A DNA stretch of 64,000 bases. Origin: Gemmatimonas sp. (lineage in GTDB: Bacteria > Gemmatimonadota > Gemmatimonadetes > Gemmatimonadales > Gemmatimonadaceae). Under the pieces are notes generated by a model. The model ran no database searches and was not told the origin of the DNA. It was given only the letters and a program-made list of their open reading frames with translations. Within the stretch, counting starts at the first letter, position 1, and every line of letters begins with the position of its first letter. Of the stretch, positions 2,211 to 12,868 are shown one piece after another. The stretch spans positions 1-64,000 of the forward strand of contig JAAVWC010000011.1 in the NCBI GenBank assembly GCA_023910675.1, read 5' to 3'. The position numbers were made by a program, and so were the translations under genes.

Positions 2211-2957
2211 TTAGCGCGAGCCCTGCCGGCGGCGACGGGCCACACCCATCAACCCCAACAGGCCGCTGCCGACCAGCGCGAACGACGTGGGCTCGGGGAC
2301 AGAAACCGTGACCTCCATGTGATCCACGAAATAGGTCAAGTACGGCTTCCCGTCGGTCGCCCCCGTCGCCGCGTTCAGCGCGCGGCTATTGAACGGGTCG
2401 TAGCTCGCCATGCCACTCTCCGTGGTCGGCAGATTCCAATCCACGTCCAGCCAGAAATAGTCGATGGCCTCCGTCGGGAGACCGTCCAGAAGCTGGAGGG
2501 GGCCGCCAAGGCTCCAGTCCTTGGTGAAGAACTGCCCGCCCGCCAAGCTGCCGGCTCGCATGGTAATCGTGATCGGCGTCGTCCATCCCGATCCGATTCT
2601 CAAGCTCTGGAGCACGAACGAACTGCCATTCGACTGCACCATGGCCTGGTCAGAAGCGAGTGCCACCACGCCCGTCTTCTCGTAGAAGTTCTGCTGCGTC
2701 TTGGTCTCGCTCTCGTCCCAGCACCGCTGGTAGTTCGCCTGATCCAGCGCCCGGAGCCCGTAAAACGTGAACCCGTTATGCGCCCCAATCATTGAAGACG
2801 CACCACTCCACTGGCACGCCGTCGACGCCCCGCCGTACCCAAGAGACTCGAAGTTCGTCGACGACTGCGCCGACGCCTGCCCTTCCGAGAGCGCCAGCCC
2901 AAGGGCGACCGCCGCCGCGCGCATCGTTGTCGGCTTCAGGGAAGTGCGAAAAGTCAT
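2211..2957 (-). CDS. PEP-CTERM sorting-domain protein
   Basis: Predicted exported protein of 248 residues. I chose the ATG at 2957 because it directly precedes a signal peptide (MTFRTSLKPTTMRAAAVALG, then a cleavage-like AQASAQS-type region); a much longer upstream reading frame has no such feature. The C-terminus has the three-part exosortase signal: VPEPTSFALVG, a hydrophobic helix, then the basic tail ARRRRQ. The body shows no recognised catalytic motif. PEP-CTERM proteins are processed by exosortases and are known to co-occur with exopolysaccharide loci; this one sits just downstream of nfrAB-wecB but is separated from wecB by 248 bp. No exosortase gene is in the window. Confidence 0.85.
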   Translation of the reverse strand: MTFRTSLKPTTMRAAAVALGLALSEGQASAQSSTNFESLGYGGASTACQWSGASSMIGAHNGFTFYGLRALDQANYQRCWDESETKTQQNFYEKTGVVALASDQAMVQSNGSSFVLQSLRIGSGWTTPITITMRAGSLAGGQFFTKDWSLGGPLQLLDGLPTEAIDYFWLDVDWNLPTTESGMASYDPFNSRALNAATGATDGKPYLTYFVDHMEVTVSVPEPTSFALVGSGLLGLMGVARRRRQGSR

Positions 2958-2979
2958 GCTGTCCGTCCGAATTAAGGGT

Positions 2980-3008
2980 ATCGTAGGCGCCAGATTGGCG
3001 AGTGCTAA
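2980..3008 (-). promoter_or_regulatory. Candidate sigma-70-like promoter for the PEP-CTERM gene
   Basis: On the minus strand, TTAGCA (3008-3003) and TACGAT (2985-2980) are spaced 17 bp apart, about 22 bp before the ATG at 2957. Each hexamer matches 4 of 6 consensus bases. Weak prediction. Confidence 0.3.
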
Positions 3009-3205
3009 TGCGTACCAGTTGCATAAGGGGTGCCAGACCGAACCATAAGCCCGCCCCCCCCCTCCACCTCGCGAACATCGGGCGCTGATGCTGCTCTGAC
3101 ACACTGAACGCAGCACCCAACGTTGCGCAGAGGCAACACCAGACATCAACATGTCGCGACAAGTCAACAGTTCGCGCTTCCGTGCCACAGCCCCGGGCAG
3201 CGCCA

Positions 3206-4402
3206 CTACAGCACCATCGATATCCGCGGCCAATCCACCTCGTCACACAACGCCGATTCCAGGATCTCGGTAATCCGCGCCGACGCCTTCCCATCCCCGA
3301 ACGGGTTGGGCACCGTCACCATCCGCTCGTAGACCGCCGGGTCGCACAAAATGGACAGCGCCTCCTTCACGATCAGGTCGGGATCGGTCCCCACCAGAAT
3401 GCCGGCGCCCACCTGCACCACCTCAGGACGCTCCGTCCGCTCCCGCAATATCAGAATGGGACGCCCCACACTCGGCGCCTCCTCCTGCAACCCGCCGGAG
3501 TCCGACAGAATGATCGTGCTCTTGTGCAGCACCTTGAGCAGATCGGGATAGCTGAGCGGCTCCAGCAAATGCACCCGCGGCGTGCCCCCCAGCTCCTGCT
3601 CGAAGAGCCCGCGCACATTCGGATTGGGGTGCAGCGGCAGCACGACCTGCAAATCCGTGACGGACGACACCAACCGCTTCACCGCGCGCGCAATGTCGCG
3701 CATCGACTCACCCTGATTCTCGCGCCGATGCGCCGTCACCAGCGCCAGCCGGCCCGCAGGGATCGCGTCGAGTAATCGATTCTCGAACGGACGTGACACG
3801 TCCATCTGCTGCACGGCGTCGACGATCGTGTTGCCCGTGACGAAGATGCGGTGCATCGGCACCCCTTCGCGCAGCAGGTTGTCGCGGCTCTCCGGCGTCG
3901 GCGCAAAGTGCCACTGCGCTGCCACTCCGACCACGCGACGGTGGAACTCCTCGGGGAACGGCTCCTGAAAATTGAACGAGCGCAGCCCCGCTTCCACATG
4001 GCCTACCGGCACCGATCGCCACGTGGCCGCCATCGCCCCCGCACAGGCACTGCTCGTATCCCCCTGCACCAAGACGGATTGCGGCGTGAGTTGCGCAAAC
4101 ACCTCATCGAGCGCCGTGATGCACCGCGCCACGAACGCACTCGGCGACTGATTCTCCGTCATCAACGAGAGCTCGATGTCGGGCACAATCCCCACATCGC
4201 CGAAGGCGCGCGCGAGCAGATCGCGGTGCTGTCCCGTGCTCACGAGCGTGCACAACAGCGACGAGGAGTCACGCAGCGCCCGCACCACCGGCGCCATCTT
4301 GATGACCTCCGGACGGGTCCCCACCACGACGGCGACGATTGGCTTGCTGCCGATGGCGGGCATGCTCCCGCGCATCGGGGTCAACCAGCGGGACTTGCTC
4401 AT
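3206..4402 (-). CDS. wecB: UDP-N-acetylglucosamine 2-epimerase (non-hydrolysing)
   Basis: Interconverts UDP-GlcNAc and UDP-ManNAc in the cytoplasm. The 398-residue protein carries the family's conserved pieces in order: VVVGTRPEVIKMAPV near the N-terminus, VQGDTSSA, GHVEAGLRS, PFPEEFHRR, VTAHRREN and SDSGGLQEEAP. Its length is slightly above the usual 375-ish because of about 20 extra N-terminal residues; a start at an internal Met is possible. The ATG overlaps the stop of the upstream glycosyltransferase by 4 bp, implying translational coupling. In E. coli, WecB supplies UDP-ManNAc to the NfrB synthase from a distant locus; here it lies in the same operon, supporting ManNAc or a derivative as the polymer's building block (inference). 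Confidence 0.95.
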   Translation of the reverse strand: MSKSRWLTPMRGSMPAIGSKPIVAVVVGTRPEVIKMAPVVRALRDSSSLLCTLVSTGQHRDLLARAFGDVGIVPDIELSLMTENQSPSAFVARCITALDEVFAQLTPQSVLVQGDTSSACAGAMAATWRSVPVGHVEAGLRSFNFQEPFPEEFHRRVVGVAAQWHFAPTPESRDNLLREGVPMHRIFVTGNTIVDAVQQMDVSRPFENRLLDAIPAGRLALVTAHRRENQGESMRDIARAVKRLVSSVTDLQVVLPLHPNPNVRGLFEQELGGTPRVHLLEPLSYPDLLKVLHKSTIILSDSGGLQEEAPSVGRPILILRERTERPEVVQVGAGILVGTDPDLIVKEALSILCDPAVYERMVTVPNPFGDGKASARITEILESALCDEVDWPRISMVL

Positions 4403-5943
4403 GCGCGTGTGTTCCTGACGACGGTTTCGACATCATCACGGGACACCGCGCCCTGCTTCACGAGAATGGCGCCCAACTGGCCGCCCCGCTCGCGCTGCTC
4501 CTTGAGCGCCAGCACAAGCTGCTGCGTGGTGAGCTTCTTCTCCTCAATGAGCCGCTCCCCGAGACGCATTTGCGCACCAACCTGCGGCGGCAACGAATGC
4601 TCGGTCTTGTCCCAGCTCATGGGGATACCGGTACGGCGCGACTTGAAGTACTGATTGGCCGCGCGGAACGTGGCCACCATGTTCACGATGTTCGAGAAGG
4701 GCGTGCGGAGAATCGACAACAGTCCCTGCCCTACGCCATACATTTTGCCCGTACTGATCGCGCGCTGCGCCAACCGGTTGCCCATGAAGAACAACCCGAT
4801 CCAGAACAGCCACGCAAACCACGGCTCGTCAAGCATCTCGGGGAGCGAGCGGTCGTAGAACACGCGCGTCCATTCGTGGCCCACGAAGTAGATGAGCAGC
4901 AGATAGCCGGCGAGCACGACCAGATAGCCCAACGGCCCGCGTCGATCGTGCGCAAGCAACCAGCTCAACCCCCGTGGCCAGCCCCAGTGCTCCCACCCCT
5001 GAAACACAATGCCGGCCATCCAGCGCGTGCGCTGGCGCACGGCAGTCCGAAACGTCTGCGGGAATGGCGCCCACGTCGCGATCAACTCTGCCGACGCCTT
5101 GTCGTCTTCGTCGATCTGCACGTACTGATGCAGGTAGCGCGTCGGGCGCCCCTGCACCGTCAGCCCGAGACCGAGATCGTAGTCCTCGGTGAGGGAGTTG
5201 GTGGCGAACGGCGTGCCGTTGCGCTCCTCCATGAGCTGGTCGATGACCGTACGACGCACGCACGTCGCCACACCCGCCGACGGCACGAAGCCCCATACCT
5301 TTTCGCGCACGAACATGTTCTTCGTGTACATCTCGGCGAATTCGTCGATGTACGTCCCGGCGACGAAGTCGTACCAGAACGGCGGCGTCGAAAGCACCGG
5401 CAGCTGGACGAAATCCACGTCGTCGTTGCGGAAGTACCAGTTGAGCAACCGCAGCTCCTGCGGGTGCACCAGATCTTCCACGTCATGAAAGACGATGAGA
5501 TCGTAACGCAACCCGGCACGCTGCTCGTGCTCCACGATGGCCTGCAGCACCGTGTTGACGCAGTCCGCCTTCGACGTCGGGCCGTCGTTGGTGGTGGTCA
5601 CCTTGCGCACGTTCGGATAGACCGCCCGCACCTTGTCGACTTCACGCCGCGTCTCCGGATCGTTCTGGTAGGTACCGATCCAATAGTCGTAGCGCTGATA
5701 GTCGAGACGCGGCACGTTGTACAACAGCATGCGCGCGATGACGTCGTCTTCTTTCCACGCGGGCGTGACGATGGCAATGCGCCATTCACTGACTTCGCGA
5801 AGCTCCTTCGCCGTGATCGTGGGGCGCTTCCACCAGCCGAAGAACTTGCCAAGCCAGAAGGTCGTATCGAACAGCAGGTCGTCAATCGCGAAGATCAGGT
5901 AGAACACCGAGATCACGATGACCGCCATCTCCAAACCGGTCAT
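4399..5943 (-). CDS. nfrB: NfrB-like membrane glycosyltransferase with C-terminal MshEN domain
   Basis: Inner-membrane family 2 glycosyltransferase, 514 residues. Visible are an N-terminal membrane helix (about residues 5-24), the GT2 acidic motifs HDVED and LTEDYDLG, the acceptor/processivity motif RQRTRW, then further membrane helices around 330-400. The last 55 residues fit the MshEN c-di-GMP-binding pattern of two 24-residue motifs with a 5-residue spacer: the first starts RLGERL and ends LALKEQ, the second starts QLGAILVKQG. The first motif has Lys where Gly is usual. E. coli NfrB (phage N4 receptor system) has the same GT2 plus MshEN layout and is c-di-GMP activated; that activity here is inferred. 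A GGAGG sits ahead of the ATG, which overlaps nfrA by 4 bp. Confidence 0.85.
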   Translation of the reverse strand: MTGLEMAVIVISVFYLIFAIDDLLFDTTFWLGKFFGWWKRPTITAKELREVSEWRIAIVTPAWKEDDVIARMLLYNVPRLDYQRYDYWIGTYQNDPETRREVDKVRAVYPNVRKVTTTNDGPTSKADCVNTVLQAIVEHEQRAGLRYDLIVFHDVEDLVHPQELRLLNWYFRNDDVDFVQLPVLSTPPFWYDFVAGTYIDEFAEMYTKNMFVREKVWGFVPSAGVATCVRRTVIDQLMEERNGTPFATNSLTEDYDLGLGLTVQGRPTRYLHQYVQIDEDDKASAELIATWAPFPQTFRTAVRQRTRWMAGIVFQGWEHWGWPRGLSWLLAHDRRGPLGYLVVLAGYLLLIYFVGHEWTRVFYDRSLPEMLDEPWFAWLFWIGLFFMGNRLAQRAISTGKMYGVGQGLLSILRTPFSNIVNMVATFRAANQYFKSRRTGIPMSWDKTEHSLPPQVGAQMRLGERLIEEKKLTTQQLVLALKEQRERGGQLGAILVKQGAVSRDDVETVVRNTRA

Positions 5944-7310
5944 CGGGCGCCCTCCTCATGCAGCGGCTTGAGCGCGCGCCACCCCCAGACGACGGTAAAC
6001 CGCCAATCCTGATAGCGACGGGTGACGCCGGCCGCCGGCGTCTTGAGGAAGCGACCGTAGATGCCTTCGGTGAGCAGCACCAGATGCGGCCCGACGCGGA
6101 GCGCCACCCCTCCACCCGATTCCGCAGCGCGATTGAAGAAGTCCCCGCGGCTGTCGTAGCCGAGCCAGCCGCGGCCGAAAATGTCGAGCGCGAGCTTGCC
6201 GGTCGTCCCGAAGCGTACGCCTTCGCGCAGCTGTGCGTAGCCAATCACGTTCTTGTCGAAGCGCTCGTAATAGCTCACGTCGGCGGCCACGTCCGTAAGC
6301 AACTTCCAGGTGGCGTTGCGCACGACGCGGCGTTCGTCCTGCGCAATGAGATAGGCACCCGTGCGGATATCGCGACGCCATGTCAGACTGTCGTCCGTGA
6401 GCAGGGAGTACGCACCACCAGCTTCCGCGTACAGCCATACCGGTCCGTGCCACGGGCGCACGCGGGCTCCCGCGGCGAGAATGGCGGCATTGTCAGACAG
6501 CACGCGCGACTGTCCGCCGCCACCGGTCGACTTGCTGTCGCGTGTCACGCGCAGCGACGAATACGCCGCCGGCGCCCACGCCGATCCGCTCTCAATGCCA
6601 TGGCGCACGAATCCAAAGCCGATGGCATTGTCGAAACGCGTCTGGTAGAACGGCGCGAGGTAGCCTTCGGAGAAAAGCACCGTTCCCACAGTGCCCTTCA
6701 CCCGCAGCGCGCGCCTGGCAGGATTCGCCACGGCCGTATCGGCACTTATCGACGCCGTGCGAAATGCCGTGAGCGCCTCGGCGTTGCGCATGACGCGGTC
6801 GTACAGATACGCCAGCGCGAGCCGGTCGCGATCGGTGGTACCGCCGGGGGTGGTCGCGATGCTTTCGAACGCGGCAATCGCCTCACTGGTGCGGCCCAAA
6901 TCGATGAGAACATAGGCGAGTTGCCGACGCACATCGGCATTCTCCGGCGCACGGGCCGCGCCCTGTCCGAACCAACGGGCCGCCGACGGCTTGTTGCCAC
7001 TCGCCAGTGCTAGATAGCCGAGTTCGATATGCGGCGCCGGCTTCGTGCTGTCCGCCGCGATGGCGCGCGCGAAATAGTCGCGTGCGGCCGCCGTGTCGCC
7101 GCGCTGACGGGCCGCGTAGGCCACGTTCATCGCGCTGGCGTATTGGTCGGCGGGCGCGTCCTGCGCGCTCGCAGTCGCCACTGGGGCCCACGCGGCCAGA
7201 ACGATAAGCGCGCATAGACGGACCGCGCCGGCGACGCGTCGTCGCGTCAGGAATCCACGAAGAGTGAGCAGCACGGTGACCAAAGAGGGGAACGCAAAGC
7301 GGCGACGCAC
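5940..7310 (-). CDS. nfrA: NfrA-like TPR / outer-membrane protein
   Basis: Predicted exported protein of 456 residues. A basic N-terminus is followed by a signal-like hydrophobic stretch ending ATASAQDAP at about residue 50. TPR-type repeats follow (about 57-190, for example HIELGYLALASGNKPSAARW). The C-terminal 250 residues are rich in alternating aromatic/hydrophobic segments and end near GWRALKP, as expected for a beta-barrel. E. coli NfrA combines TPRs with an outer-membrane barrel and exports or anchors the NfrB product; E. coli NfrA is much longer (about 990 residues), so this is a compact version. The GTG at 7310 has AGGAG seven bases upstream. First gene of the overlapping nfrA-nfrB-wecB operon. 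The family assignment rests on architecture and neighbours more than on motifs. Confidence 0.7.
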   Translation of the reverse strand: MRRRFAFPSLVTVLLTLRGFLTRRRVAGAVRLCALIVLAAWAPVATASAQDAPADQYASAMNVAYAARQRGDTAAARDYFARAIAADSTKPAPHIELGYLALASGNKPSAARWFGQGAARAPENADVRRQLAYVLIDLGRTSEAIAAFESIATTPGGTTDRDRLALAYLYDRVMRNAEALTAFRTASISADTAVANPARRALRVKGTVGTVLFSEGYLAPFYQTRFDNAIGFGFVRHGIESGSAWAPAAYSSLRVTRDSKSTGGGGQSRVLSDNAAILAAGARVRPWHGPVWLYAEAGGAYSLLTDDSLTWRRDIRTGAYLIAQDERRVVRNATWKLLTDVAADVSYYERFDKNVIGYAQLREGVRFGTTGKLALDIFGRGWLGYDSRGDFFNRAAESGGGVALRVGPHLVLLTEGIYGRFLKTPAAGVTRRYQDWRFTVVWGWRALKPLHEEGAR

Positions 7311-7515
7311 CAGCGGCTCCTGTCGCGAACGACGAGGTCGGCAGGCCCGCAGCGAACGAAAGCATACCGGGGGTGTGACTTACGCGATAGATGCCGAGAC
7401 GGTGACACGCGGTACCGCCGTGCCAGCGGTGTTCAAGCTAGAGCTTGCACCAAGGCCTCTCAAAGCCAAAACCATGAAATCAGATTCATAATCGCCGCAC
7501 GTCCAGCCAAACACA

Positions 7516-7543
7516 AACGCGCCACCCGGTTGGGTGACGCGTT
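7516..7543 (-). terminator. Hairpin terminator after the riboswitch-controlled gene
   Basis: Arms 7516-7527 and 7532-7543 pair over 12 positions with one mismatch and a GGTT/AACC loop. On the minus strand the stem is followed by a T-rich run (TTTGTGTTT). It lies between the lipoprotein gene and nfrA, so nfrA either has its own promoter in 7311-7515 or is read by leak-through. Confidence 0.7.
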
Positions 7544-7570
7544 CTATTGCCGAGATCGCCTAACGGGGGG

Positions 7571-8389
7571 TTACATCGCCCGGACTGAATGGACCTTGAT
7601 GGCCGCGTCTTCGGCATAGATCCCGATGCGCCCCTTCGTGTAAGGCTTCTCGGCGTCACGGGTCCGGACGATTTCGCGGCCGTCGACGAAGACGGCGAGC
7701 TTGTCGTTGTGCTGGACGATGGTAACGTCGTAGATCGTCCCAATGGGGAACGTTTCGAGGTGCCCTGAGGCGAGGAAGCGCTGTCCGCCCGGGTAGCTGG
7801 GGTCGCGCTTGCCGAGTTCCCAGCCGTTGGGCTTGGGGATGAAGTAGTAGAAGCGGCTGTCGTCTTCGTATTGCCAGATGACCCACGCGACTTCCCATGG
7901 GTTTGGCTCTCCGTCGCGGAGCTGGGCCGTGGTTTCGACGCGGGCATGGTACATGAGCTGATCGCCGTACGCCGGTCCGAGCACGAGGGGGGCATGCGTC
8001 TGCCAGCCCTTCTCGGCGGACTTGGGGCCCATGGCGAGCGTGCCCTGTCCGAACGGTCCACCGACGGTCACGCAGCCGTAGCCATCGAAACGCACGGTCC
8101 AGTCACCGAAAGCCTCGCCCTGCGTAATGCAATCCGCGCGGAGCTGCGGAAAGGAGAGGCGCGGCAAACGATTGGCGACGCGGAGCATCTGGACGCGGGT
8201 GGCGTCATCGCGGCGGGTGGGCGCGGCAAGGATGGCGTTGGGGCTTCCGACCGCTCCCGCCGCGGAGCCGACGCTCGTGCTGGGGACCGCAGGGCGGCAT
8301 GACGCCAGCAGGATGAGCGCGCCGACGGCGGCCGTGCTCCCTGTCCGGTGTGTGAACCGCTGTACCGCCTGCTGCCATGCTGTACGCAT
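7571..8389 (-). CDS. Secreted lipoprotein with concanavalin A-like (DUF1080-type) fold, riboswitch-controlled
   Basis: 272-residue protein. The start at 8389 is set by a GGAGG eight bases upstream and by the signal peptide that follows, which ends in a lipobox (LLASC); a longer frame would run back through the riboswitch. After a linker, the last 170 or so residues have the beta-sandwich style of LamG/DUF1080 domains: FYYFIPKPNGWELGKRD, the strand TIYDVTIVQHNDKLAVFVDG, and GRIGIYAEDAAIKVHSVRAM at the very end. Such domains bind or cleave glycans, but no catalytic residues can be named. Its leader is a c-di-GMP-I riboswitch and its downstream neighbours are the nfrAB-wecB polysaccharide genes, so a role on the same surface glycan is a reasonable guess. 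Confidence 0.7.
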   Translation of the reverse strand: MRTAWQQAVQRFTHRTGSTAAVGALILLASCRPAVPSTSVGSAAGAVGSPNAILAAPTRRDDATRVQMLRVANRLPRLSFPQLRADCITQGEAFGDWTVRFDGYGCVTVGGPFGQGTLAMGPKSAEKGWQTHAPLVLGPAYGDQLMYHARVETTAQLRDGEPNPWEVAWVIWQYEDDSRFYYFIPKPNGWELGKRDPSYPGGQRFLASGHLETFPIGTIYDVTIVQHNDKLAVFVDGREIVRTRDAEKPYTKGRIGIYAEDAAIKVHSVRAM

Positions 8390-8403
8390 GTCTGTCGCCT
8401 CCG

Positions 8404-8500
8404 TGATCGTTCGGTAGCTCAGCCGGCAGACACATCGTGCGATGTGTGAAACCCTGGAGCTTTGCGTCACTGGCTTTCGCCAGCTTTGCCATTTCGCGAC
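8404..8500 (-). promoter_or_regulatory. Cyclic di-GMP-I (GEMM) riboswitch
   Basis: Read on the minus strand, the leader contains GGCAAAG, a hairpin CTGGC-GAAA-GCCAG with the GNRA tetraloop, the invariant GTGACGCAAAGCTCC, a second helix around ACACATC-GCAC-GATGTGT, and the closing CTGCCGGCTGAGCTACCGA. These are the core elements of the GEMM-I aptamer in correct order and spacing. The aptamer ends only a few bases before the GGAGG ribosome-binding site of the 8389 start, leaving no room for a separate terminator, so control of translation initiation is the likely mode (inference). Confidence 0.95.
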
Positions 8501-8801: not shown

Positions 8802-8832
8802 AGCGCCCCGGATGCAGAGCATCCGGGGCGCT
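8802..8832 (-). terminator. Hairpin terminator of rpsL-rpsG
   Basis: Arms 8802-8815 and 8819-8832 are perfect 14-bp inverted repeats with a 3-nt loop, 27 bp beyond the rpsG stop. No good U-tract follows on the minus strand. It explains why fusA is no longer co-transcribed with rpsG. Confidence 0.7.
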
Positions 8833-9736: not shown

Positions 9737-10099
9737 CAGATATTGGTAGCCCGTTGGCTGGTAGGCCGACGGGGAGTTCGTACTCCGACTTCTACGTGGA
9801 TCGTTCCCTGAGACAAGGGACGGCACGGAACAGAACACTGAGCTTAATCAGCGCGGGGGATTCGGTCAACGGGGGTGGGGAACCAGAGACGAGAGACGAG
9901 AGACGAGAGACCAGAGACGAGAGTTGAGCATTGAGAGTTGAGACTTTGATAGGGGTGAGAGTTGAGGAACGCAGAAGTGAGAAGTCAGGTGGCATCCGGT
10001 TTGGGGGAGGGGGTGTCGTAACAACACGGGGGCTCCCGACGTAAACGTTGTGGGGGACGTGCTGGCGTTCCCTTGGTCCGTTTTCCCAGGTGTTTTACG
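9737..10099. other. Repeat-bearing intergenic region between rpsL and the kinase gene
   Basis: Divergent gap with no coding potential. It should hold the rpsL promoter (minus) and the kinase promoter (plus). At 9890-9945 it contains a purine-rich run of GAGACGAGA-like units, followed by one copy of a 41-bp dispersed repeat at 9948-9988. Confidence 0.6.
9948..9988 (+). repeat. 41-bp dispersed repeat, copy A
   Basis: Starts GATAGGGGTGAGAGTTGAG and continues with ACGCAGAAGTGAG. Three more copies lie at 12133-12173 (+), 12689-12729 (+) and 12763-12803 (-), all exactly 41 bp with no gaps. Each is preceded by a 50-60 bp CTGAG/GAGAC-rich run. Confidence 0.8.
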
Positions 10100-12070
10100 G
10101 TGAGCGACTTTCAGGATCGACTGCAGGCGGCGTTAGCGACCGAGTTCCGGATCGAGCGGGAACTGGGGGGCGCGGGGATGTCGCGCGTGTTCGTCGCGAC
10201 CGAGCTGGCCTTGGGGCGCCGGGTGGTGGTGAAGGTGCTCCCCCCCGATCTGGCGGCCGGCGTCAACGTCGACCGCTTCCGGCGGGAGATCCAGCTGGTG
10301 GCACAGTTGCAGCACCCCCATATCGTGCCCGTGCTGGCCGCTGGAGACGATGCGGGGCTGCTCTGGTACTCGATGCCGTACATCAACGGGGAATCGCTGC
10401 GCGGTACCCTCACGCGCCAGCAACGGCTGTCGGCGCGGGACGTCGTGCGCATCCTCCATGACGTCGTCGATGCCCTGGCCTACGCGCACGCCAGCGGCGT
10501 GGTGCACCGGGATATCAAGCCCGACAATATCCTCACGTCGGGGATGCACGCGCTCGTCACCGATTTCGGCGTGGCCAAGGCGCTGAGCGCTGCCATCCCG
10601 CAGCATGGCGGCACCACCACGGGCATGGCGATCGGGACACCGGCGTACATGGCTCCTGAGCAGTTGGCCGCCGATCCTGCGGCCGATCACCGCGTGGACC
10701 TCTACGCGGTCGGCCTGCTCGCGTACGAGCTCCTCACGGGCAAAAGCCCGTTCACCGGCAGCTCACCGCAGGCGACACTGGCGGCACAGCTCACGCAGAT
10801 GCCTGAGCCTCCGCACCGGGCGCTCAAGAACGTGCCGGAGCCGCTATCGCAGCTCATCATGCACTGTCTCGAGAAAGACGCCGGCAAGCGCCCCGCCACG
10901 GCCACGACGCTGCTGGCCGAGCTCGAGGCGCTCCCGCCCATGACCACCGGCGTGACCATCGCGCCGCGCCGTTCGGGGCCTCGGCCGGCGCTGCTCGGTC
11001 TTGGTCTGGTCGCGGTCGCCGCCGTTGTTTGGACGGTGATGCCCAAGAGCACGCCGCCGTCGTCGCCTGACGGGCTCGACGCGCGGGATGCGGGCCCGGG
11101 CGGAGCCGCATCCGTTGCCACACTGAAGAACGGCGTTCGCGCCGCAGGGGACCGTGCCCCCGTGGCCATGGGGCCCCTCAGCGATACCGTCGCCGTATTC
11201 CGCGACATTACCGACGGGGCCCCGACCGTCTCCGTCCCACTCGTGATCACCCGAGCGGAATCACTGGCCATCGCCGACGCGGTACGCAAGCGTCAAACCT
11301 CGGCGCCGGTATCACCCTCTCGTACCCCGGCAGCAACAGCCGGTGACACCAACGCGGCAGGCGGCACGATGACGCGGGTGTTGCTGCGCATGGGCGACGG
11401 CGGCACCGCAGACGTCGATCGCGAACTGCTGCTGGCCGAAGTCGGCCGCATCTTTGCCGACTCCATGGCGCGGGCCATCAAGCTCATGGATTCCGCGCTC
11501 GCCCATGCGCCGCGTGTCTTCCGCATGGAACCGCCGGCGCCGGGAGCGCCCGGAAGCAGCCGCAGTGGCATGAGCGTTTCCGGTATCGATACGCGCACCA
11601 TGTCGCGTCCGTCTTCGTTCGTGACGCCGTTGCTGGCACCGCCGAGCGATGGCCGACTGCGCGTGGTGGTGACCACCTTCACCAACGCGACGGGCCGCCG
11701 CGAACTCAACGGCCTCGCACGCGACGCGGCCACGCAGCTACGCGACGCTATCCCCGGTGACCGGTTCGACGTGGTGTCGACCGATGTCACCGAACGCGCG
11801 TCGCGGTCGCTCCCCGACAAGATGTCCGTCGGGTGGGCCCTGCGCGCCGACTTCGTCGTGAGCGGATGGATGATGACGCGGGGGGATTCGGTGGCGATGG
11901 TGACGATGCTGACCAACGTACGGACCGGCCGCTTCACGCGCGCAGCCGAAACGGTCGCATCCAACGCCGACGGGGTTCGCGGCGTGAGCTTGGAGAGCGC
12001 GCGGAAGCAGGTGGGGGCGTGGCTGGACACGGCGGCCACGATGGCGGCGCGGCGACGCAATCAGAACTGA
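10100..12070 (+). CDS. Membrane Ser/Thr protein kinase with TolB/FlgO-like C-terminal domain
   Basis: 656 residues from the GTG at 10100, chosen because it yields MSDFQDRLQAALATEFRIER, the usual N-terminus of this kinase group; a TTG at 10073 would add nine residues. Hanks-type kinase: Gly-loop GGAGMSRVF (poorer in glycine than usual), VVVKVL lysine, catalytic VHRDIKPDN (about 133-141), DFG at about 155, APEQ at about 184. A juxtamembrane linker precedes one membrane helix (about 297-313). The extracytoplasmic part ends with a 140-residue domain starting RLRVVVTTFTNATGRREL, like the TolB-N/FlgO type that often accompanies these kinases. It interrupts the rpoC-rpsL spacing on the opposite strand. 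Substrates are unknown. Confidence 0.9.
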   Translation: MSDFQDRLQAALATEFRIERELGGAGMSRVFVATELALGRRVVVKVLPPDLAAGVNVDRFRREIQLVAQLQHPHIVPVLAAGDDAGLLWYSMPYINGESLRGTLTRQQRLSARDVVRILHDVVDALAYAHASGVVHRDIKPDNILTSGMHALVTDFGVAKALSAAIPQHGGTTTGMAIGTPAYMAPEQLAADPAADHRVDLYAVGLLAYELLTGKSPFTGSSPQATLAAQLTQMPEPPHRALKNVPEPLSQLIMHCLEKDAGKRPATATTLLAELEALPPMTTGVTIAPRRSGPRPALLGLGLVAVAAVVWTVMPKSTPPSSPDGLDARDAGPGGAASVATLKNGVRAAGDRAPVAMGPLSDTVAVFRDITDGAPTVSVPLVITRAESLAIADAVRKRQTSAPVSPSRTPAATAGDTNAAGGTMTRVLLRMGDGGTADVDRELLLAEVGRIFADSMARAIKLMDSALAHAPRVFRMEPPAPGAPGSSRSGMSVSGIDTRTMSRPSSFVTPLLAPPSDGRLRVVVTTFTNATGRRELNGLARDAATQLRDAIPGDRFDVVSTDVTERASRSLPDKMSVGWALRADFVVSGWMMTRGDSVAMVTMLTNVRTGRFTRAAETVASNADGVRGVSLESARKQVGAWLDTAATMAARRRNQN

Positions 12071-12132
12071 GGACTCAGAGCTGAGAACTCAGAGCTCAGA
12101 AGCCAGATGTCAGAACTCAGAAGTGAGTTTTT

Positions 12133-12556: not shown

Positions 12557-12868
12557 AGAGCGCGCGGGGTACCGTCACCATTTTCGCGTCAGTTGCATCG
12601 TTGCGACGCAATGGTATCGGAGATCTGAGATCTGAGATTCGAGTGCCAGATAAAGCAGCGAGAGGCTGAGAGTCGAGACGCCAGCCCGGATAGGTGCGAG
12701 AGTCCAGCAACGCAGAAGTGAGCGGCGAGGCCCCGCGGTGCCGGTTACCCCAACCGCAGGGCCTCGCCGCTCACTTCTGCGTTGCTGGACTCTCACGCCT
12801 ATCCAGAGCTGAGTTCTGAGCTCTGAGTTCTCAGTTCTCAGTTCTCAGTTCTCAAGGACAACAAAAGC
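12557..12868. other. Repeat-rich intergenic region downstream of rpoC
   Basis: No gene. It contains GAGATCTGAGATTC-type purine-rich runs at 12615-12680, the large inverted repeat at 12688-12804, and a tandem run of about 11-bp CTGAGTTCTCAG-like units at 12805-12855, before the rpoC terminator. Confidence 0.7.
12688..12804. repeat. Large inverted repeat formed by repeat copies C and D
   Basis: Two 46-bp arms (12688-12733 and 12759-12804) are inverted copies differing at two positions, separated by 25 bp. Each arm contains one full 41-bp repeat, so two copies face each other tail to tail. Transcribed from either strand this would form a very stable hairpin. It lies just past the rpoBC terminator. 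Confidence 0.9.

Follow-up and report, generated by a model that had tools for sequence, protein, structure and literature searches.

A probable Nfr-type surface-polysaccharide cassette between rpsG and fusA in Gemmatimonas, with two predicted points of control by c-di-GMP

In the 64,000-nucleotide stretch of Gemmatimonas sp. DNA analysed here (the window; GCA_023910675.1, an assembly that is 85% complete, contig JAAVWC010000011.1, positions 1–64,000), the translation gene rpsG (9329–8859), which follows rpsL (9736–9326), is separated from fusA (from 1822 leftwards) by ∼7.0 kb. An earlier note on this DNA had put the separation at ∼7 kb and had stated that the two genes are usually adjacent; in related families of the same order the gap is indeed only ∼100–350 bp. 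The interval contains, in the order of reading, a riboswitch-led lipoprotein gene, nfrA, nfrB, wecB and a gene for a PEP-CTERM protein, all on the minus strand and co-directional with rpsL, rpsG and fusA. Every part named in the note is present, with coordinates that were exact or off by a few bases. We judge it somewhat better than an even bet that these genes form an Nfr-type surface-polysaccharide cassette on which cyclic di-GMP (c-di-GMP) acts at two levels, through the MshEN domain of NfrB and through the riboswitch of the lipoprotein gene, and that the lipoprotein is glycan-active.

The nfrB gene (4399–5943) encodes a family 2 glycosyltransferase (GT2) synthase with a C-terminal MshEN c-di-GMP-binding domain. 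The motifs of a processive GT2 enzyme are in place (DVED at 154, TED at 252, QRTRW at 304 and two LG motifs), and the MshEN domain scored 49.3 bits with NCBIfam NF053729, against a cut-off of 38. The protein is 36% identical to Escherichia coli NfrB over 529 aligned positions (blastp, 1e-103); the NCBIfam NfrB model gave 421 bits, which is under its cut-off of 1170 for full-length equivalogs. The product of nfrA (5940–7310) has tetratricopeptide repeat (TPR) matches, and its structural model comprises a TPR region (53–205) and an outer-membrane barrel of ∼12 strands (211–449), the architecture of an exporter. The top fold match was the cellulose exporter BcsC, and we predict that NfrA is a glycan exporter. 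WecB (gene at 3206–4402) is a non-hydrolysing UDP-GlcNAc 2-epimerase, which makes UDP-N-acetylmannosamine (UDP-ManNAc); it scored 410 bits with TIGR00236 (cut-off 210). It is the sole wecB copy found in this assembly, and wecB was adjacent and single in four genomes (G000, G055, G074 and G079, by our numbering), as expected if it supplies the synthase.

The last gene of the cassette (2211–2957) encodes a predicted surface protein with a PEP-CTERM signal (TIGR02595, 22.7 bits against a cut-off of 16) and a weak likeness to the flocculation protein PepA (floc_PepA, 38.9 bits, under the cut-off of 80). A PEP-CTERM gene occupies the same place in relatives. Its product diverges much faster than its neighbours, with 27–31% identity to the proteins of genomes whose NfrB is 79–95% identical, and this pattern suggests swapping or diversifying selection. 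No exosortase was found in this 85% complete assembly, though PEP-CTERM genes are present; seven of seven near-complete genus mates tested carry one each. In four genomes (G074, G055, G079 and G068) a second riboswitch lies 7–37 kb from the exosortase gene.

The lipoprotein gene (7571–8389) starts with an ATG behind GGAGG and encodes 272 residues with a lipobox (LLAS/C) and a concanavalin A (ConA)-like jelly-roll domain, whose signature reads PNPWEVAW...YYFIPKPNGWELGKRD. In its AlphaFold model, most of the C-terminal 100 residues have a predicted local distance difference test score above 90. A fold search with the model returned CBM66 at the top (E 4e-9), followed by L-type mannose lectins, GH16 enzymes and PL7 alginate lyases. 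The jelly-roll fold is common to CBM66, PF06439 and the lipoprotein, but identity to CBM66 is ∼12% and the lipoprotein has a conserved signature of its own. Membership of PF06439 (3-keto-disaccharide hydrolase) was rejected: the match, at residues 207–265, scored 19.8 bits against a gathering threshold of 26.8, and only the ConA-like fold is in common. Nor is the lipoprotein a YbcH homologue, as neither blastp nor hidden Markov model searches gave a match, or a viral module, since we found one weak match in a viral contig, none in phage records, and only generic jelly-roll tail proteins in a viral fold search.

The leader of the lipoprotein gene carries a c-di-GMP-I riboswitch aptamer (8410–8500; Rfam RF01051, 65.5 bits against a curated cut-off of 35). 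An aptamer of conserved structure stands 5' of the lipoprotein gene in all 12 orthologous leaders examined, its pairs kept via compensatory changes, and in these leaders the start codon comes 17–37 nt after the aptamer ends. Such a spacing is too short for an intrinsic terminator, and control of the lipoprotein gene is therefore probably translational. Strong, terminator-like hairpins lie 3' of rpsG, before the riboswitch unit (8802–8832, fold z = −7.8), 3' of the lipoprotein gene (7515–7544) and 3' of the PEP-CTERM gene, where the cassette ends ahead of fusA (2151–2193, z = −7.6). The second is the hairpin that the earlier note had placed at 7516–7543, and it is real: the stem is 13 bp, z = −3.8, and none of 200 shuffles was as stable. 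The hairpin tails are not T-rich, and terminator consensus scans therefore missed them. A block 5' of nfrA (7362–7394), TCTATCGC..AA.GTCAC....GGTA, is kept in eight genomes while the rest of the spacer aligns poorly; its conservation points to a promoter-like or operator-like element. A scan of the locus for the sigma-70 promoter consensus was uninformative. The likeliest reading of the sequence is that there are three transcription units, rpsL-rpsG, riboswitch-lipoprotein and nfrA-nfrB-wecB-PEP-CTERM.

Co-occurrence of the lipoprotein and nfr genes, whose failure in related genomes the earlier note had named as refuting its proposal, was assessed across 148 family genomes, and the proposal passed. 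Ten have the lipoprotein, and nine of these ten also have NfrB; the exception, G242, is represented by a 3.2-kb contig that stops within the lipoprotein gene. Among 298 sampled genomes of the phylum, NfrB was confined to Gemmatimonadaceae. Five further genomes of the genus have the same order, rpsL-rpsG-lipoprotein-nfrA-nfrB-wecB-PEP-CTERM-fusA, and so do three loci of a sister genus (g21) over the length that their contigs cover. We conclude from the same-genome distribution and the conserved order in two genera that lipoprotein, nfrA, nfrB and wecB travel together. Since order and riboswitch are conserved down to ∼59% NfrB identity, the arrangement is not due to chance. In G254, from a more distant genus, the lipoprotein gene lies beside wecB on one contig and the nfr genes lie on a different one; the genes thus still co-occur where the arrangement is lost. 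The MshEN domain was above cut-off in five of five NfrBs tested from riboswitch-bearing loci, while the NfrBs of G254 and of a Methylocystis locus (L126) are without MshEN, and both of these loci are also without a riboswitch. In this small sample, MshEN and riboswitch come and go together. Together with the 12 aptamer-bearing leaders, this makes the double c-di-GMP input that had been claimed, on RNA and on the synthase, a conserved feature as judged by sequence.

The note had described the genes as an island inserted between rpsG and fusA. The interval is certainly occupied here, but simple insertion does not describe it; within the genus it is a site at which cassettes vary. At five loci from other species it holds an alternative cassette on the opposite strand, which comprises a wecB (46–48% identical), a PgaC-like GT2 gene and a gene for a bactofilin-like protein; some of these loci add a YaiO barrel and a PEP-CTERM gene. 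Among 30 genomes of the genus, NfrB is present in seven, the alternative GT2 in 15, and both in none. In one genome the interval looks nearly empty, with fusA ∼370 bp past rpsG. Such a swap of alternative wecB-GT2 cassettes between two conserved genes resembles a surface-antigen exchange site.

The lipoprotein domain has relatives well outside the family. A scan of 84,980 species genomes yielded 96, of which 80 were kept, from Gemmatimonadota, Methylocystis, many Actinomycetota, Elusimicrobia, Peribacteria and one Chloroflexi. Across 81 sequences of the domain, T131, T153, R158, N163, W165, E166, W169 and G189 are invariant, and K186, E191, K194, Q203, E260 and D261 nearly so. Neighbours were counted at the 57 relative loci flanked by 4 kb or more on each side: wecB is near the domain at 46, a GT2 synthase at 48 and both at 45, mainly in Actinomycetota (where the GT2 matches are distant) and Methylocystis. 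By chance, wecB would be expected within 10 kb of a given gene in ∼0.5% of cases (six wecB in ∼23 Mb from five genus genomes); the 57 loci are not independent, but they come from several phyla. In Actinomyces the adjacent genes run in the order GT2-domain-wecB. On the basis of this neighbourhood, the domain is a marker, by sequence and not an exclusive one, of WecB-GT2 operons that probably make ManNAc polymers. The suggestion that the lipoprotein may be glycan-related thus looks sound, from the ConA-like fold of the model and from the wecB-GT2 linkage. No riboswitch was found beside relatives from Peribacteria, Elusimicrobia and Methylocystis in the seven loci scanned. At two actinobacterial loci, one in Actinomyces and one in Streptomyces (L177:13562–15499 and L136:4799–6736), a DUF2334 protein is encoded near the domain; it is possibly a further partner of the WecB-GT2 polymer.

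The pairing of a riboswitch-led gene for a predicted glycan-acting protein with a synthase of the c-di-GMP-activated type is not limited to Nfr-type loci. In genus g13 (G095, L220:3628–9673) a riboswitch lies 9 nt before a lipoprotein gene of glycoside hydrolase family 6 (GH6), and a second GH6 gene, a DUF3131 gene and a BcsA-like GT2-PilZ synthase are nearby. Genus g20 (G177, L228) likewise has a riboswitch before GH6, accompanied by DUF3131 and a BcsA that is 68% identical to that of g13; the PilZ domain was shown at L220, that is, in one of the two genera. These clusters, from the same bacterial family, resemble the window in combining a riboswitch on the hydrolase gene with a synthase of the c-di-GMP-activated type, and differ in synthase, hydrolase fold and sugar, in having PilZ rather than MshEN, and in giving no wecB match. 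The design, a riboswitch on the hydrolase and a c-di-GMP domain on the synthase, therefore exists with wholly different parts. The only other c-di-GMP-I riboswitch in the genome of the window (L064:7590–9356, G000:C18), downstream of a low-molecular-weight protein tyrosine phosphatase gene, precedes a gene for a lipoprotein that combines Big_2 and polysaccharide-lyase-like domains. Across the loci surveyed (L024–L052 and L221–L240), most Gemmatimonadaceae c-di-GMP-I riboswitches lie 9–25 nt before lipoprotein genes (Big_2, subtilase and GH6). A set of four riboswitches (L032 and L037–L039) precedes a response-regulator-like gene.

The closest described system is the N4 glycan receptor (NGR) of E. 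coli, NfrB-NfrA(-YbcH) with WecB. E. coli NfrB binds c-di-GMP with a Kd of 1.0 µM, its glycosyltransferase residues are needed for phage N4 infection and it depends on WecB; NfrB homologues have been described as wecB-linked, chiefly in Proteobacteria (PMC8669469, PMC8669472). Both systems have a GT2-MshEN synthase of the c-di-GMP-activated type, a TPR-barrel exporter and dependence on or linkage to wecB. In contrast to the window, the E. coli system has a longer NfrB (745 residues against 514), wecB located elsewhere, no riboswitch, and YbcH, a DUF4434 protein unrelated to the lipoprotein; in contrast to E. coli, the window has the riboswitch-led ConA-like lipoprotein and the PEP-CTERM gene. 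No gene of the cassette matches YbcH. N4 can infect E. coli without YbcH (PMC8669469), which is therefore not essential to membership of the Nfr group. A second comparison is the Pss system of Listeria monocytogenes (PssA–E), which makes a c-di-GMP-activated, ManNAc-containing polymer and has its own glycosidase, PssZ (PMC4125290, PMC6307706, PMC7479077). Like the window it combines a c-di-GMP-activated GT2 with a ManNAc polymer (activation and product both being predictions for the window), and PssZ is encoded among c-di-GMP turnover genes. It differs in that PssE senses c-di-GMP, PssZ has an (alpha/alpha)6 fold of GH8/GH126 type, and its authors found no c-di-GMP riboswitch in Listeria (PMC4125290, PMC6307706, PMC7479077). 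The view that the combined system had not been described as a unit therefore holds in part: the open-access papers searched gave no account of the combination, but its Nfr half is known. c-di-GMP control of the synthase and the link of the synthase to wecB are not new (PMC8669469, PMC8669472), while the riboswitch-led ConA-like lipoprotein, the cross-phylum linkage, the PEP-CTERM partner and the cassette exchange site are. In the open-access literature searched, we found no c-di-GMP riboswitch paired with a glycoside hydrolase.

From these parts we infer how the cassette would work. WecB would make UDP-ManNAc, from which NfrB would polymerize a ManNAc-based glycan for export via NfrA, and binding of c-di-GMP to the MshEN domain would switch the GT2 domain on post-translationally. 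At the RNA level, c-di-GMP would bind the riboswitch and alter, in one direction or the other, translation of the lipoprotein. The jelly-roll lipoprotein would be an accessory factor acting on the glycan, by trimming, releasing or retaining it, and the PEP-CTERM protein may partner the glycan at the surface. The riboswitch-lipoprotein and nfrA-nfrB-wecB transcripts would be separate, tied together by the common messenger.

Several observations weigh against this scheme. NfrA gave no significant sequence match to E. coli NfrA, and a quarter of the lipoprotein relatives lack one or both of wecB and GT2, those without both being from Peribacteria, several Elusimicrobia and a few other hosts. Folding of the leader with and without P1 did not reveal the mode or direction of riboswitch action. 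Within the family, riboswitches mostly lead genes for other lipoproteins, Big_2 above all, so that a riboswitch-lipoprotein pair does not by itself mark a synthase cluster. These common units away from synthases would favour the view that the lipoprotein is an unrelated envelope gene, co-inherited because it shares the cassette site; yet co-occurrence with NfrB holds in G254, where the genes are unlinked and the lipoprotein is next to wecB, and relatives in other phyla adjoin wecB and GT2 genes. We disfavour such a coincidence on these grounds, the same-genome distribution and the linkage in other phyla, and regard it as very improbable. The top fold match of the lipoprotein, CBM66, is a binding module and not an enzyme. 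It and the L-type mannose lectins, the conserved Trp and Tyr that could stack on sugars and the lipid anchor are what would be expected of a lectin-like anchor, in which case dual control would be the same but the riboswitch would govern the amount of polymer retained at the surface and not the amount trimmed. Against this, the corresponding riboswitch-led genes are GH6 hydrolases in sister genera and the polysaccharide-lyase-like protein in this genome, and the conserved acidic and basic residues E166, E191, R158 and K186 suit catalysis as well as binding. We judge trimming or cleavage more likely than binding only; a lectin-like anchor is possible, with a definite minority share of our confidence.

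The other alternatives concern the reach and the ligand of the riboswitch. That its control extends over the whole island is not obvious, because a strong hairpin and a conserved promoter-like element precede nfrA, and RNA-level control is thus probably confined to the lipoprotein. A single c-di-GMP-controlled operon, with read-through into nfrA-nfrB-wecB, would fit the co-directional genes and the close spacing of nfrA behind the lipoprotein gene at one sister-genus locus (L060). It would also fit the distribution of the hairpin 3' of the lipoprotein gene, which is clear in the nearest relatives only and not evident at L057, L107 and L108. Set against the hairpin and the block kept 5' of nfrA, and against an aptamer too near the start codon for a transcriptional switch, we consider one operon unlikely. 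The ligand could instead be another cyclic dinucleotide, such as 3',3'-cyclic GMP–AMP (cGAMP), so that the two inputs were different messengers; RF01051 includes aptamers of more than one specificity. But the aptamers read GGCAAA, with a G at what we take to be, on a numbering that we also assume, the position where cGAMP-specific members carry A, and the presence of the riboswitch with MshEN and its absence without it fit one messenger. Different messengers are accordingly quite improbable, and c-di-GMP acting on both synthase and lipoprotein leader is the reading that we retain.

A dedicated hydrolase or lyase usually accompanies synthase-dependent polysaccharides, and how such an enzyme is controlled is poorly understood. 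In the cassette described here, a single messenger appears to govern both the synthase, by protein allostery, and its glycan-acting partner, by an RNA switch. The recurrence of this wiring with unrelated enzymes in sister genera suggests that the wiring itself is selected. More broadly, we give about even chances to a twofold proposal: that the lipoprotein represents an uncharacterized glycan-active domain family, found in several phyla and mainly with WecB-dependent (ManNAc) polymers, and that Gemmatimonadaceae use a general, undescribed design in which the polymer's hydrolase is under a c-di-GMP riboswitch and c-di-GMP also switches the matching synthase allosterically, a design that arose independently two or more times (as MshEN-NfrB with the ConA-like lipoprotein, and as PilZ-BcsA with GH6). 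The signature domain offers a cross-phylum handle on WecB-GT2 polymers, probably of ManNAc, for instance in Actinomyces, Streptomyces and Methylocystis, and points to a candidate activity for assay.

Outside the cassette, three short arrays of 7-base units (AGAGACG, TCAGAAC and AGTTCTC; 9885–9923, 12061–12122 and 12812–12854 of the window) flank a protein-kinase gene downstream of rpsL.

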